Source: Brochothrix thermosphacta DSM 20171 = FSL F6-1036 (lineage in GTDB: Bacteria; Bacillota; Bacilli; Lactobacillales; Listeriaceae). Taken from it: a stretch of DNA of 64,000 nt. A model generated the notes under the pieces. That model was not told the origin of the DNA. It searched no databases and saw nothing but the letters and a program-made list of their open reading frames with translations. Below, piece after piece: positions 5,232 to 30,179 of the stretch (positions are counted from its first letter, which is position 1; every line of letters begins with the position of its first letter). The DNA is taken from positions 2,314,285 to 2,378,284 of the forward strand of contig NZ_CP145608.1 of NCBI RefSeq assembly GCF_036884295.1, read 5' to 3'. The position numbers were made by a program, and so were the translations under genes.

Positions 5232-5509
5232 TATGATTCCCCATTTCATTTTTAGTCTTCCTGTATCATAATTTATTTCGCTACACCACATACCCACAAA
5301 ATTAACAGCAATATTTAAGGTGTTTTTAGAGGGACATAAAATTAAAAATCAACCGCTGTTAACCTCGTGCTATCATAGGTTGACTAGCTATCTGTCTTAT
5401 GCGATTACGGCTTCAAAATTTTTGCCCACGATTTACTATGTTACACTTGATATGTGAGGGAAACCTGACAGACTCCAAAAATACTGAACTTAGGGAAGAA
5501 GTAATCATC

Positions 5510-6505
5510 GTGAAAAAAACGATTGGATTTATTATCAGCCATAAGGAAAATGAACATCGCTTGGCATTATTACCAACAGATTTCATTAAGATAAAGAACC
5601 CATCGTATTTATTTTTTGAAGAGAATTACGGCGCCTATTTAAATATAAGTGATCAACAATATCGTGATGTTGGTGCCCAGATTGTCTCTCGAGAGATGGC
5701 ACTGCAACAAGATATCATCTGTGAACCTAAATTAGGTGATGCAGATTTTTTACACACTCTAAAACCACACCAAACATTGTTTGGTTGGATACACGCTGAG
5801 CAAAACAAGCAATTATCGCAACTGCTCATTGCCAAAGAACTGAAAGTCTTTGCTTGGGAAGAAATGTTCCATCTTAACCGCCACCTCTTTTGGCGGAACA
5901 ACGAACTAGCTGGTGAGGCAGCAGTACTTCATGCTTATTTATTACATGGTTGCCTCCCCTACGAAACCAAAGTAGCTGTGATTGGACGCGGCAATGTCGC
6001 AAATGGTGCTGTTAAAATTCTTCAACGTCTAGGTGCTGAAGTAACAGTCTATAAGCGTAATCAAGAGCTATTATTGCATGAAGAACTTGGTGAATTTGAC
6101 GTGATCGTTAATGCCCTTTTATGGGATAACGCTCGTAAGGATTACCTTATCACACGTGCTGATTTGAAAAGAATGAAATCCAACGCACTTATTATCGATG
6201 TAAGTAGCGATTATGATGGTGCGATTGAAAGCTCACATCCAACTTCTTTAGAAGAACCGACATTCACTGTTGAAAATATTTGCCACTATGCCGTAGACCA
6301 TACCCCTAGTATGCTCTACCGTACATCGACGCAAAGTATTTCAACTGTCATTGCACCCTTTTTGGATGATTTAATTACGGGAACAAGTAATCCTATTTTA
6401 GCTAAGGCCGAAATTTTACGTAACCCAGCGAGTAAGACTGTTAAAATCCATAAAATTAAACCACGTATTGCTGATAGCGGCAATGTATCGAGTAATAAAA
6501 AATAA
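5510..6505 (+). CDS. ceo: N5-(carboxyethyl)ornithine synthase-like dehydrogenase
   Basis: 331 residues in the alanine dehydrogenase/PNT fold, close to the Lactococcus lactis carboxyethylornithine synthase (about 313 aa). Visible are the N-terminal GFIISHKENEHRLALLP, EENYGAYLNISDQQYRDVGA, LFGWIHAEQN, and a Rossmann NAD(P) site AVIGRGNVANGAVKILQRLG around residues 170-190. The L. lactis enzyme reductively condenses pyruvate with the side-chain amine of ornithine or lysine using NADPH. A GTG at 5510 is taken as start because GGGAAGAA lies 8-10 bases before it and it aligns with the family N-terminus. An upstream in-frame ATG at 5399 lacks an RBS. Monocistronic. Confidence 0.8.
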   Translation: MKKTIGFIISHKENEHRLALLPTDFIKIKNPSYLFFEENYGAYLNISDQQYRDVGAQIVSREMALQQDIICEPKLGDADFLHTLKPHQTLFGWIHAEQNKQLSQLLIAKELKVFAWEEMFHLNRHLFWRNNELAGEAAVLHAYLLHGCLPYETKVAVIGRGNVANGAVKILQRLGAEVTVYKRNQELLLHEELGEFDVIVNALLWDNARKDYLITRADLKRMKSNALIIDVSSDYDGAIESSHPTSLEEPTFTVENICHYAVDHTPSMLYRTSTQSISTVIAPFLDDLITGTSNPILAKAEILRNPASKTVKIHKIKPRIADSGNVSSNKK

Positions 6506-6558: not shown

Positions 6559-6673
6559 ATGGGGACATTTCGCGGCAGCTGACTGGTCAACTAACATAAA
6601 AATTCATCGCAATATCATCCCCTTCATTAGTAGTTACACTCTCTTATTTTCTAGCTACTTTCAAAATCACAAA

Positions 6674-7293
6674 AAAACACTATCCTGACAAACTGCGTCA
6701 AAACAGTGTTTCCTCCAATTCAGGCGCAATAGCGATGTTGAGATAGTAGGCACGACAAGTGAATGACGGTGCGCATACCTCAGTACGCAATCCCGAATGA
6801 ACGAGAAGTAACGCCCTAGATTAGTATCGCTATTGTGTCTGAAAATGCTTTTATTTGTATCTAGTATTTCAAGCCATAACTTCCAAAATTTCAAAAACAC
6901 TATCCTGACAAACTGCGTCAAAATAGTGTTTTATCAAATTCAGGCGCAATAGCGATGTTGAGATACTAGGCACGACAAGTGAATGACGGTGCGCGTACCT
7001 CAGTACGCAATCCCGAATGAACGAGAAGTAACGCCCTAGATTAGTATCGCTATTGTGTCTGAAAATGCTTTTATTTGTATCTAGCATTCCAAGCCATAAC
7101 TTCCAAAATTTCAAAAACACTATCCTGACAAACTGCGTCAAAATAGTGTTTTATCAAATTCAGGCGCAATAGCGATGTTGAGATAGTAGGCACGACAAGT
7201 GAATGACGGTGCGCGTACCTCAGTACGCAATCCCAAATGAACGAGAAGTAACGCCCTAGATTAGTATCGCTATTGTGTCAGAAAATGCTTTTA
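6674..7293. repeat. Three tandem copies of a 220-bp structured repeat
   Basis: The unit beginning AAAACACTATCCTGAC recurs at 6674, 6894 and 7114, an exact period of 220 bp, with only scattered substitutions. The third copy is cut short after about 180 bp. Each unit has (i) a 10-bp hairpin AAAACACTAT/ATAGTGTTTT (for example 6894-6932), (ii) a 121-nt element at 6721-6841, 6941-7061 and 7161-7281 with long inverted arms (CAGGCGCAATAGCGAT...ATCGCTATTGTGTCTG), and (iii) a small GCGTAC-CTCA-GTACGC hairpin inside it. Frames across the repeat look like chance. The copies lie between the convergent ceo and MMPL genes, and the MMPL stop codon falls inside the last repeat bases. Confidence 0.9.
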
Positions 7294-9876
7294 GCGTTTT
7301 CTGAATAATATAATCAATGCCGGTAACACTGTTAACGCGCAGATTAAGCACAGCAGTGTATCTAACACGGTTGTTATTCCGAAATCACGTAAGATTGGGA
7401 AACTTACAAACATTAGTGTTGAGAAACCAACGATAACTGTTAAACCTGATACAGTGATTGCTTGTCCCACTTTAGATAACGAGACGTGAATCGCTTCTTT
7501 TGTTGCCAAACCTTTTGCTTCTTCTTCACGGAATCGTTCCATAATTAAAATCGTGAACTCTGTCCCTATCCCTAATACCAAACAGCTTAACGCGGTTGTT
7601 AAGGGGTTGTATGACATCCCTAGCATTTTTAATAGTAACGGTGAAAAACCGAGTACTAATAAGATTGGAATAATTGGATAAATCGCATGTTTTACACGTC
7701 GGTAAACTAGGAATAATCCCACAAAGATAATCAATAAACCTGCACCAATCATTAGATTACTGTTGGCTCCAATATTATCAATACCAAAGAGCATCATAAC
7801 TTGTGCGCCTGCCGGTTTTACTGAGATGCCTTTGCCAGCATCAATTTTAGCAGTAATTTTATTCAATAATGCTAACTGATCGGCAGAAGATAGATTATTA
7901 TCAATTTGGAACTGTAACGTTGCATAGTGTTTATTTTTACTTACAACCATTTCTTGAACTGATTTTGGTAATTGTGACACACTCTCAGGTAATTTTTCAT
8001 TATCCTTTTTAACTGTCCCTTTACCTTCAATGTCTTCCACATAAGTTGCGACAGATGTTACTCCCGTAACGTCTTTAAATTCACCTTTAACTTTATCACC
8101 AAAAGTCTTCATCCATGATACAACTTCTGGCTGTGTCACATCATCAGCTTCTACTAAATAACTGATAAAGGTTGTAGAACCCACTGTTTCTTGTAGATAA
8201 TTAGTGTTTTGTAATGCCTTCATTTCTTGTGGAATCATTTTCATCATGTTTGTTTCCGTTGGTATTGATTTTTCAACCGAAAAACCAATGCCTGCTAGAA
8301 TAACGCCGACAATCAAAATTGGAGCTGCAAATTTACCAACCAATTTAGCGTAACTTCCTAACCCACGCGACAACCATGTTTCATCATTGTTTTTAATTTT
8401 CACTTCGCCTTTTTTCTTTTTCTTGTCCATCATATTGAATGTAGAGAACATTAATACGAGTTCAACAATGTAACAGAAAATAACACCTAAAGCGAGTGTT
8501 AAACCAAATTGTTGCATCATTGGTGCTTTTGAAAGGAACATTGTTAAGAAGCTCAATGCCATAATAGCGACTGCAATTCCTACAGCTGGTCCGATATGTC
8601 GAATAGCAGTGACGGTTGCTTCATCTGCTTTATAGTCGCTTTTCTTAAATTCTTCTTCATAACGATTATGGAATTGAACACCAAAATCCGTTCCTAGCCC
8701 AATGATAATCGGTAAGGTTGCCATTGTTGCTAGCGTAATTGGAATTCCTACCCAGCCCATAAAACCAAATGTCCAGATGAGACCTATCAGAACAAAACCT
8801 AATGAGATCACACGTCGACGCACTGGGAAAACAACTAATAATACAACAATCATTAATACAACTGACAAGGATAACATCACTGTCATTGTTGTCATTACTT
8901 CACCTTGAACATCACCTTGAATAATCGGCCCACCTGCTAATTTAACAGTGATGCCATCTCCAAAATCAGTGTTTTTAACTAATTTTTTCAGTTCCTCATT
9001 TGTATGTACTGCTGTATCCATCTCAGTATCATCTGATGTGTTAAGCATTATTAAAACATTGCCACCATTGTTGGGTATGATTTTTTCCAATGCTGTCGGT
9101 ATTTTTCCTTTATCAGAAAAGACGATTTGACGTAACAATGAGTTATCCATATCCTGGATTTTAGGCATTGCTTTAATCACAGCTTCTTGCATATTAGCCG
9201 ATTGTTTTTTTGTTAAAATACTTTGCGTATATGCTTCTACTTTTTGACGCTGTTCTTTTGTTAACGTAGACTGAACAATTCCTGCTTGCTGTTCTGGTGT
9301 CGCTGCAGCACCCAAGCCAGCAATTTGTTGACCGACTGTCATTTTTTGTGGATCTGTTAACAACGATTGCATGTATTCTTGAATTTTTGCACTTTGATTA
9401 GCAGATAAACTTGCTTGCATATCTGACTCGATTTTTTTCATTTTTGCTGCTGGAATTGCTTTTTGAATACTCTCAGATAATTTCGAATCACCTGACATAT
9501 TGAAACCAGCACTTGGGTTATTTGATGCTAACATTTCATTCATTAAGCTAATATAGTTTGATGCACCCGTAATCGCTTCAATCTTAGTCGCTTTTTCAGA
9601 AAATGTTGTGATTTTTTGAGCTGTTTCATGTGAGATCAACTTGTCTTTATCACCTTCAAGCAGCAAATAGATGCCATCCCCACCAAAGTTTTTTTGATAA
9701 GTCGTTGTGTCTTTATAGACATCTGATTTACTGCTAACAAAAACATCATTGCCCATTTTCATATCTAATTTAGTTGCTCCAAACGCTAAAAAGACTGTCA
9801 CTGCTAAAATGACAATAATATTTACCTTGGCATGTTTAATGATGAAATGGCCAATTTTATTAAATAATTTATCCAT
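7291..9876 (-). CDS. MMPL/RND-family membrane exporter
   Basis: An 861-residue protein with the duplicated RND layout: one N-terminal membrane segment, a large extracellular loop (about 40-330, rich in Gln/Ala/Lys), five membrane segments (about 335-490), then the same pattern again with the last helices from about 690 to the C-terminus. Motifs include LPIIIGLGTDFGVQFHNRYEEE and LVLGIGTEFTILIMERFREEE, the acidic proton-relay helices of MMPL proteins. It probably exports lipids, hydrophobic drugs or peptides. RBS GGGAAGGTGAG precedes ATG. Its TetR regulator lies 112 bp upstream on the same strand. The stop codon lies within the 220-bp repeat, so the C-terminus (ending LFRKR) may have been altered. 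Confidence 0.9.
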   Translation of the reverse strand: MDKLFNKIGHFIIKHAKVNIIVILAVTVFLAFGATKLDMKMGNDVFVSSKSDVYKDTTTYQKNFGGDGIYLLLEGDKDKLISHETAQKITTFSEKATKIEAITGASNYISLMNEMLASNNPSAGFNMSGDSKLSESIQKAIPAAKMKKIESDMQASLSANQSAKIQEYMQSLLTDPQKMTVGQQIAGLGAAATPEQQAGIVQSTLTKEQRQKVEAYTQSILTKKQSANMQEAVIKAMPKIQDMDNSLLRQIVFSDKGKIPTALEKIIPNNGGNVLIMLNTSDDTEMDTAVHTNEELKKLVKNTDFGDGITVKLAGGPIIQGDVQGEVMTTMTVMLSLSVVLMIVVLLVVFPVRRRVISLGFVLIGLIWTFGFMGWVGIPITLATMATLPIIIGLGTDFGVQFHNRYEEEFKKSDYKADEATVTAIRHIGPAVGIAVAIMALSFLTMFLSKAPMMQQFGLTLALGVIFCYIVELVLMFSTFNMMDKKKKKGEVKIKNNDETWLSRGLGSYAKLVGKFAAPILIVGVILAGIGFSVEKSIPTETNMMKMIPQEMKALQNTNYLQETVGSTTFISYLVEADDVTQPEVVSWMKTFGDKVKGEFKDVTGVTSVATYVEDIEGKGTVKKDNEKLPESVSQLPKSVQEMVVSKNKHYATLQFQIDNNLSSADQLALLNKITAKIDAGKGISVKPAGAQVMMLFGIDNIGANSNLMIGAGLLIIFVGLFLVYRRVKHAIYPIIPILLVLGFSPLLLKMLGMSYNPLTTALSCLVLGIGTEFTILIMERFREEEAKGLATKEAIHVSLSKVGQAITVSGLTVIVGFSTLMFVSFPILRDFGITTVLDTLLCLICALTVLPALIILFRKR

Positions 9877-19874: not shown

Positions 19875-19967
19875 GTCTAATTTTATGAATACCACAACCA
19901 GTGTTAATAATGAAATGATGAACATTCCAAAAACAAACATTAGTTGTAGTGACTCAAAAATAGTCAC
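19863..19967 (-). CDS. Holin-like type I toxin peptide, copy A (34 aa)
   Basis: A 34-residue peptide starting with GTG at 19967, preceded by the strong RBS AGGAAAGG. It has a short charged N-terminus (MTIFESLQ), a single membrane helix (LMFVFGMFIISLLTLVVVFI) and a charged tail (KLDQKK). This is the pattern of the TxpA/BsrG/holin-like toxin group, which damages the membrane or envelope when over-expressed. A near-identical second copy follows 534 bp away. An antisense RNA overlaps its 3' end. The long 5' leader, about 90 nt, could fold over the RBS as in other type I toxins. Confidence 0.85.
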   Translation of the reverse strand: MTIFESLQLMFVFGMFIISLLTLVVVFIKLDQKK

Positions 19968-20061
19968 AAAAAGGCCTTTCCTTTCCTAGATTGGACACCT
20001 ATTTCCATAAGCATCACCACCCTTCGGGATAGCCACCGTCTTCCACTTCTCTACCTCAATT

Positions 20062-20089
20062 ACTATAACATATTCAATCCTCAATCGAA
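20062..20089 (-). promoter_or_regulatory. Promoter of toxin mRNA A
   Basis: On the minus strand an extended -10 box TGTTATAGT (20062-20070) is preceded at 16 bp by TTCGAT (20084-20089). The extended -10 is conserved in cassette B. Confidence 0.6.
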
Positions 20090-20408: not shown

Positions 20409-20501
20409 GTCTAATTTAATGAGTACTACAACCAACATTAATAATGAAATGATAAACATTCCAAAAACCAACATTAGTTGTAGTGACTCAAAAATAGTCA
20501 C
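20397..20501 (-). CDS. Holin-like type I toxin peptide, copy B (34 aa)
   Basis: 34 residues from GTG 20501 with RBS AGGAAAGG. It differs from copy A at five positions, all conservative or in the tail (LMLVFGMFIISLLMLVVVLI, then KLDKKK). Keeping the frame, the hydrophobic helix and the charged ends while DNA has diverged suggests selection on the peptide. Same promoter, terminator and antisense RNA arrangement as copy A. Confidence 0.85.
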   Translation of the reverse strand: MTIFESLQLMLVFGMFIISLLMLVVVLIKLDKKK

Positions 20502-20595
20502 AAAAAAGCCTTTCCTTTCCTAGATTGGACACCTATTTCCATAAGCATCACCACCCTTCAGGATAGCCACCGTCTTCCACTTCTCTACCTCAATT

Positions 20596-20623
20596 ACTAT
20601 AACATACTAGATCCTCAATCTAA
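20596..20623 (-). promoter_or_regulatory. Promoter of toxin mRNA B
   Basis: Minus-strand extended -10 TGTTATAGT (20596-20604) with TTAGAT 16 bp upstream (20618-20623). Transcript start near 20589. Confidence 0.6.
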
Positions 20624-23302: not shown

Positions 23303-23341
23303 CACCGTAGGAAACACAAACGAGACGTGTCCCTTCACTTC

Positions 23342-23428
23342 TGCCACATTTCCTCCGCTGGTACTAACCAGATCAGGTCCAAGGGTCAGGACAAACCTAT
23401 CTCAGCCTTAAAAAAGGCCCCCCTAGTG
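23342..23428 (-). promoter_or_regulatory. TPP riboswitch (THI element)
   Basis: The minus strand shows the conserved aptamer: ACTAGGGGGGCC (P1/P2), GGCTGAGATAGG, GACCCTTGGACCTGATCTGG and TTAGTACCAGCGGAGGAA. The order and spacing match the thiamine pyrophosphate aptamer. It sits 120 bp ahead of thiM with a terminator between, so control is by transcription attenuation: high TPP turns the salvage operon off. Confidence 0.95.
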
Positions 23429-23490
23429 GTATCGATTCAATTCACTTAAAGAATAGCACGCTTAACAGATTGTCGCAAGTTGTGGCACTT

Positions 23491-30022: not shown

Positions 30023-30179
30023 AGAGCTCCTTTTAAAGCACATTCATTCTTAACTTTAATTATACGGATAGAAAAAACATTCGTCAAAAATGTCCGCCTT
30101 AAATAAAAGATTTAACTAACATAACTAATCAAATAATTCATTTAATTAACAGTAATATTACAAATATTACATTTTTAAC

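Follow-up and report, generated by a model that had tools for sequence, protein, structure and literature searches.

Folded repeats in a Brochothrix thermosphacta tandem array are probably decayed copies of a non-autonomous IS1182-type mobile element

In the genome of Brochothrix thermosphacta DSM 20171, three tandem units stand between two genes whose ends face each other, which raises the question of what these units are and how they came to be there. The window analyzed here is a 64,000-nt stretch of contig NZ_CP145608.1, and the features of the array are collected in Table 1. An exact 220-bp period holding an element of about 121 nt had been read from the letters alone and was borne out: the copies start at 6673, 6893 and 7113, a spacing of 220 and 220 bp, Tandem Repeats Finder reports 2.8 copies with 97% matches and no indels, and each unit contains a 121-125-nt element. 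The terminator-like hairpin said to separate the units is present as an A/T-flanked hairpin in every unit; the terminator scan, however, accepted just the hairpin preceding copy 1, on the minus strand (1 site, with 0.7 expected from shuffles). Sequences similar to this hairpin are dispersed over the genome (BLAST, positions 1-48 of the unit query). The tetraloop hairpin GCGTAC-CTCA-GTACGC claimed for the middle of the element is broken in copy 1, where GCATAC leaves an A-C mismatch on the plus strand.

Table 1. Features of the array and its neighbors in window coordinates (R2, covariance model described in the text)
Feature	Position	Strand	Basis or remark
Tandem array, three 220-bp units (third incomplete)	6673..7293	+	repeat finding
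Structured element copy 1 (core 6721-6841)	6719..6843	+	R2, built without copy 1: 43.2 bits
Structured element copy 2 (core 6941-7061)	6939..7063	+	folding; R2 44.4 bits
Structured element copy 3 (core 7161-7281)	7159..7283	+	R2 44.3 bits
A/T-flanked hairpin before copy 1	6674..6711	not assigned	terminator-like on minus strand
Same A/T-flanked hairpin before copy 2	6894..6932	not assigned	arms 6894-6909 / 6917-6932
Same A/T-flanked hairpin before copy 3	7114..7152	not assigned	arms 7114-7129 / 7137-7152
Gene with alanine dehydrogenase / PNT domains	5399..6505	+	ends toward array
MMPL-family membrane protein gene	7291..9876	-	ends at array

The element folds better on one strand than on the other. 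In copy 2, the arms at 6941-6961 and 7041-7061 form 21 consecutive pairs including five G-U, a run that lengthens to 23 when the outermost U-A pairs are included. The 21-position plus-strand pairing described by the sequence-only reading thus holds for copy 2 but not for copy 3, in which one outer-stem mismatch leaves a run shorter than 21. That reading was correct in placing A-C at the G-U sites of a minus-strand transcript, all five G-U pairs of copy 2 becoming A-C. Predicted RNA folding energies on the plus and minus strands were -46.1 and -39.9 kcal/mol for copy 1, -48.2 and -43.5 for copy 2, and -44.5 and -35.4 for copy 3, and the plus strand was the more stable in six out of six sequences compared (the three window copies and three Listeria relatives). 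None of 200 dinucleotide shuffles of the copy 2 plus strand folds as well (z -6.3); the minus strand likewise beats its shuffles (z -5.0).

In order to find relatives, one unit was used as a BLAST query, which gave 38 matches in its own genome and 12 in the second species of the genus; a further 29 genomes gave no match. The matches in the own genome form three modules: the hairpin (1-48), the core (about 63-150) and a tail (174-210). The sequence-only reading had proposed a search of related genomes with a covariance model, and such a search found dispersed homologs with covariation. The model R1, built from an alignment of 17 copies (A1), counts 29 copies in the own genome and 33 in the other species, the 17 model-building copies included. 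Over 60 genomes, 11 showed a match, including both species of the genus; all 11 lie within the family of the host (36 genomes of it searched), and none of the 24 genomes from other families matched. Listeria fleischmannii LU2006-1 (G043) holds 40 copies and L. goaensis (G005) six. Among the nine Listeria genomes listed as group g2, seven have one to seven copies, L. booriae (G008) among them, and two have none; orthologous copies occur there in several species, with outer stems that, by eye, change in concert. Accordingly short, non-coding, multi-copy and dispersed, the element resembles a MITE in these respects.

Several variants and neighbors of the family were also noted. At G000 C1:2010813-2011514 (L005, about 1479-2205), the core is repeated seven times head to tail, about every 102 nt, and lacks the long basal stem. 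In four variants of the element (L164-L167), the apical domain is enlarged by about 50-55 nt and is similar among the four copies read. In the second genome of the genus, another small hairpin element is nested inside the element at one position (L033, L034, L035, L037, L038 and L040). A second repeat family of this genome, seen at L015, L016, L019, L020, L023, L027 and L028, has two halves that enclose a variable terminator-like hairpin, and the window unit includes part of it.

The conserved fold was examined in an alignment of 22 Listeria copies (A2). From the base upward, it begins with a basal stem of 21 bp, then has a GA/GA internal loop, 3 bp, a conserved UA-G-GC / AA-C-GAC module and 6 bp. 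Above these, a 4-bp helix lies between two mirrored, purine-rich internal loops, and a GCGUAC-GUACGU hairpin forms the apex. In A2, 98.9% of cells pair, and both sides have changed in 28 of 45 pairs (shuffled mean 15.2; slid versions 4-8, a comparison favored by taking the structure from the first row of the alignment), with both-side changes in 145 cells (shuffled 38.5). The corresponding figures for A1 are 88.5% of cells and 20 of 45 pairs (shuffled 10.2; slid 3-9). G-U cells outnumber A-C cells by 82 to 17 in A1 and 79 to 5 in A2, and pairs showing only G-U outnumber those showing only A-C by 16 to 3 and 16 to 4, respectively; the sum of 32 versus 7 gives p = 7e-5 if columns are independent, which is a rough figure because the copies are related. 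Together with a third set described below, in which G-U also exceeds A-C, the covariation supports selection for the folding of one strand.

Whether that strand acts as RNA is a separate matter. Folded single-stranded DNA also accommodates G-T more readily than A-C, and the element has no fixed orientation relative to the gene expected to transcribe it, so RNA and folded single-stranded DNA are not separated by these data. Selection for a plus-strand RNA rather than a DNA palindrome, as first suggested, therefore stands as far as one-strand folding is concerned, but its covariation and G-U excess also fit folded single-stranded DNA. In the orientation check, a co-directed gene precedes 16 of 26 Listeria copies. 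A role as a 3'-UTR RNA with fixed orientation was considered and is not supported, since the other 10 follow no such gene.

Relatives beyond the family were searched with R2, a covariance model built from Listeria copies only, which recovers the three window copies at E-values of 1.3e-7 to 2.4e-7 in 141 kb. At 1e-5, it matches 11 of 299 Bacilli genomes, the own genome included. A repeat of Brucella daejeonensis, first met by an exact pattern scan and giving at least 40 BLAST matches there, shows the same apical fold; R2 found it in 20 of 20 loci, 19 of them at 9.5e-10 to 2.8e-6 and L217 at 0.004. The model also finds one Phyllobacterium plasmid locus and, in the order to which the Brucella genome belongs, matches four of 121 genomes, that genome included. 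On plasmids, the Brucella repeat has relatives in 31 alphaproteobacterial records. A third alignment of 32 matches from 29 of 30 loci (L217 fell below threshold) has 87.7% of its cells paired and both sides changed in 41 of 45 pairs (shuffled 27.1; slid 22-24), figures that lean to the model because the sequences were fitted to R2. G-U and A-C cells number 56 and 17 in Alphaproteobacteria and 38 and 11 in other Bacilli. In five Bacilli genomes, copies adjoin rRNA genes: directly before 16S rRNA at L223 and, by reading, at L227, where the 16S is masked; directly before 23S rRNA at L228; and after 5S rRNA at L224 and L226. At L224, a longer stretch, comprising a partial 5S and its terminator, is present on both sides of the element.

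Membership in an Rfam 15 family was rejected, as no match over the gathering cut-off fell at the element in the window or in the loci given, and lenient E-values gave nothing convincing for it. The phage collection searched contained no element match, nor did viral contigs match the one exact pattern of this genus that was used. Against plasmids, the window unit had no match and a Listeria copy had one short alphaproteobacterial match. On these results, an origin from phages or plasmids in Bacillota was rejected.

The ends of the element suggest how it moves. Preserved copies end in an inverted repeat of about 15 bp, like CAGAYTGTWGACAAA, and are arranged as a terminator-like hairpin, a CAG-type end, the element, the reversed CAG-type end and a second copy of that hairpin, often with a T-run behind it. 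Counts of the end pattern SAGMYTGHWGAHAAA against its reversal were 25/1, 67/2, 96/2, 38/1 and 5/0 in five genomes, an excess of 25 to 48 times over the reversed control in four of them and 5 versus 0 in the fifth. To look for duplication, 24 Listeria loci were examined (20 of 40 copies from L. fleischmannii and four of six from L. goaensis), and a left end was found in 20. In 17 of these 20, the whole hairpin recurs in direct orientation over 18-36 bp with no more than two mismatches (none in 12), within a few bases of the element ends; for each locus, the script kept the best result over a narrow range of offsets and lengths, without a null. The remaining three loci have 6-11 mismatches between the flanking hairpins. 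At L076, the flanking hairpins appear by eye to be mutually inverted and to differ by paired stem changes. Empty sites were also read from alignments: at the locus of L087, L. goaensis carries a single hairpin without the element, as do five genomes at that of L078.

In the host genus, 28 loci from 62 known copies, each array counted once, were scored with a null. Six loci score 21-31; the best mismatched pairing reaches 7-9 among those six and 12 among all 28. None of the remaining 22 scores above 8 or shows a duplication by script; among them are L025/L067 and L039/L044, where duplication is clear by eye and the script missed the left ends. The window array (L001) shows neither hairpin duplication nor matching ends: its copies end in TTCAGGCGC and GTGTCTGAA (GTGTCAGAA in copy 3), which do not match the end pattern. 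Target-site duplication, expected of a MITE, is thus present in preserved copies but not in the window array. On inspection, no duplication was seen at the g2 Listeria copies or at the copies before 16S or 23S rRNA. None of 26 Listeria loci (of 28 elements) and two of 24 scored in the host genus (25 given) lie between divergent genes, and this near absence from divergent-gene gaps means that the gene context fits terminators. The Brucella ends are only suggestive of the same terminal repeat: 12 left and 11 right ends, out of 20 each, mismatch at no more than two of 15 positions, compared to 12 of 400 random 70-nt stretches that match equally, with search words chosen after the ends had been seen. 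By reading, no hairpin duplication was noticed in the 20 Brucella loci.

Paired ends are mostly a few hundred bases apart, and no transposase was seen by eye in the stretches read. An autonomous copy between paired ends was sought without success in 20 stretches of G001, in six loci of L. fleischmannii and two of L. goaensis, and among the close end pairs listed in these two Listeria genomes, as distinct from widely spaced ones (e.g. G005 C11:187693-194052). We searched for IS1182-type transposases because work on IS1272, a member of that family, reports targeting of inverted repeats and sketches a duplication of the stem-loop. They were found in six of 19 genomes. A Bacillus relative (G073) carries three intact insertion sequence copies with the ends CAGGCTGTCGAGAAA and CAGATTGTAGAGAAA, each between duplicated hairpins, and its transposase scores 479.8 bits against the NCBIfam IS1182 model (cut-off 270), which places it in the IS1182 family. 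With this protein as query, 12 of 47 genomes match. Among 12 of 30 insertion sequence loci inspected, nine show an end on either side and a hairpin repeat that is exact over 17-32 bp; the six Listeria loci among these end in CAGACTGTAGACAAA and CAGACTGTAGAAAAA and match the element end pattern at both ends, although they were not used to define it. The remaining three comprise one with a single end beside a hairpin (L263), one with none (L281) and one lacking the repeat (L260). Terminal inverted repeats matching an autonomous element, a further MITE feature, are therefore found in preserved copies but not in the window copies.

With regard to an autonomous partner in the same genome, as expected of a MITE, the genomes differ. 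The Bacillus relative, which also has 12 element copies, one of them (L220) with a hairpin duplication and similar ends by eye, is the only genome in which the element and an intact insertion sequence with matching ends were both seen. Distant or broken IS1182-type genes accompany the element in G002, G004, G117, G131 and G244, and G001 has one broken IS1182-type remnant. No such transposase was found in the window genome, L. fleischmannii G043 or L. goaensis G005, and three Listeria genomes with an intact close insertion sequence (G035, G037 and G038) gave no element match with R1 under strict filters. Draft genomes can miss insertion sequences; the window genome is a single contig, so its transposase source must be lost or foreign. 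Hairpin duplication is not universal among IS1182-type elements: at six such copies in G117 and two in G004, the ends are different and no duplicated hairpin is visible.

On the basis of these features, we consider it probable (roughly 0.7) that the three units are copies, decayed and amplified in tandem, of a non-autonomous IS1182-type mobile element with a folded core of about 121 nt. At 121-250 nt, the element has no room for an IS1182 transposase and does not encode one; only its proposed partner does. An IS1182-type transposase would act in trans on the element ends and join them at the foot of a terminator hairpin, possibly extruded as a cruciform, and repair would then copy the hairpin to give hairpin-element-hairpin. 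In the window, the ends would have decayed and tandem duplication would have produced the three units. This way of moving is well supported by the anatomy of the loci. The core would most plausibly work either as a folded DNA strand during transposition or as an RNA structure through which insertions at gene ends are tolerated. The sequence-only reading missed that the element is dispersed and, judging from IS1182-like ends and whole-hairpin duplications, mobile. It had named a match to a known transposon with terminal repeats as evidence against itself; such ends and duplications come close to that, and the structural claim survives. The folded mobile elements form a real, patchily spread family that is probably old.

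Other readings give the core or the mover a different part. We hold it possible, as a tentative reading, that the core is a hitherto undescribed structured RNA common to Bacillota and Alphaproteobacteria, present also at mature rRNA ends and spreading by means of acquired IS1182 ends; if so, each jump would enter and copy a terminator, and gene ends would keep a working one. That the core is primarily a functional RNA, for example in processing, stability or antitermination in transcripts and rRNA operons, with mobility secondary and the stem base having come to match IS1182 ends in some lineages, appears unlikely to us. Such a role would account for a fold kept in Listeriaceae, other Bacilli and Alphaproteobacteria, the G-U excess in every set, the copies directly before 16S or 23S or after 5S rRNA in five Bacilli genomes and the concerted outer-stem changes, seen by eye, in orthologous g2 Listeria copies. 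However, presence in 11 of 299 Bacilli genomes is patchy, orientation to the neighboring gene is not fixed (16 of 26 co-directed, 10 not) and Rfam gives no match.

Movement by another enzyme, such as a Y1/RAYT transposase, a reverse transcriptase or a Cas1-like integrase duplicating a hairpin repeat, is improbable: ends and hairpin duplication match IS1182-family elements, even though the genomes richest in the element have no transposase of the proposed type. Least credible is an ordinary local event in which a structured terminator region that had never been mobile was duplicated in tandem. The lack of an insertion signature in the window array agrees with it, but it is already disfavored by the dozens of copies dispersed over two species, by the homologous family of other genera and by the empty sites.

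Compared to known systems, the non-autonomous IS1182-type element shares some features and departs in others. Halling and Bricker reportedly described the Bru-RS palindromic repeats of Brucella in 1994. As cited in passages of PMC2267715 and PMC3163539, Bru-RS are intergenic palindromes of 103-105 bp present in tens of copies, and the Brucella daejeonensis repeat agrees with them in host, length and palindromy, from which, rather than from sequence, its identity is suggested. In excerpts of PMC5678879, IS1272 targets inverted repeats and is reported to replace the target without duplication, while pathway b of the model there has joining at the 5' foot of the stem-loop possibly duplicate the whole stem-loop. 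The Listeria and Bacillus-relative insertion sequences likewise have such ends and duplicate whole hairpins, in keeping with the inverted-repeat targets of the family in those excerpts. Unlike the IS1182 family, the element lacks a transposase and has a conserved folded core, and unlike IS1272 as described there, it is flanked by a duplicated hairpin. It resembles bacterial MITEs and BOX, RUP and SPRITE, as portrayed in the consulted text of PMC10969869, in being short, non-coding, dispersed, intergenic and folded with inverted ends; in contrast to these, its target duplication is a whole terminator-like hairpin and its core is conserved across phyla. A word search of the main text of PMC10969869 gave no IS1182, Listeria or Bru-RS, and titles and abstract beginnings in the open-access literature yielded no description of the element. 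The loci would thus provide genomic evidence for hairpin-guided transposition in which the whole hairpin is duplicated, as foreseen by one possible pathway in the excerpts of PMC5678879. They suggest a way for mobile DNA to enter gene ends with the terminator left intact, and one conserved fold, absent from the Rfam 15 reports, links repeats of Listeriaceae, other Bacilli and Alphaproteobacteria.

Elsewhere in the window, two Rfam matches to rli28, a Listeria sRNA, lie about 355 bp apart on the minus strand (19901-20077 and 20432-20611). A TPP riboswitch (Rfam) is found on the minus strand at 23332-23434, and a short tandem repeat with a period of 30 and 2.4 copies at 30101-30174.
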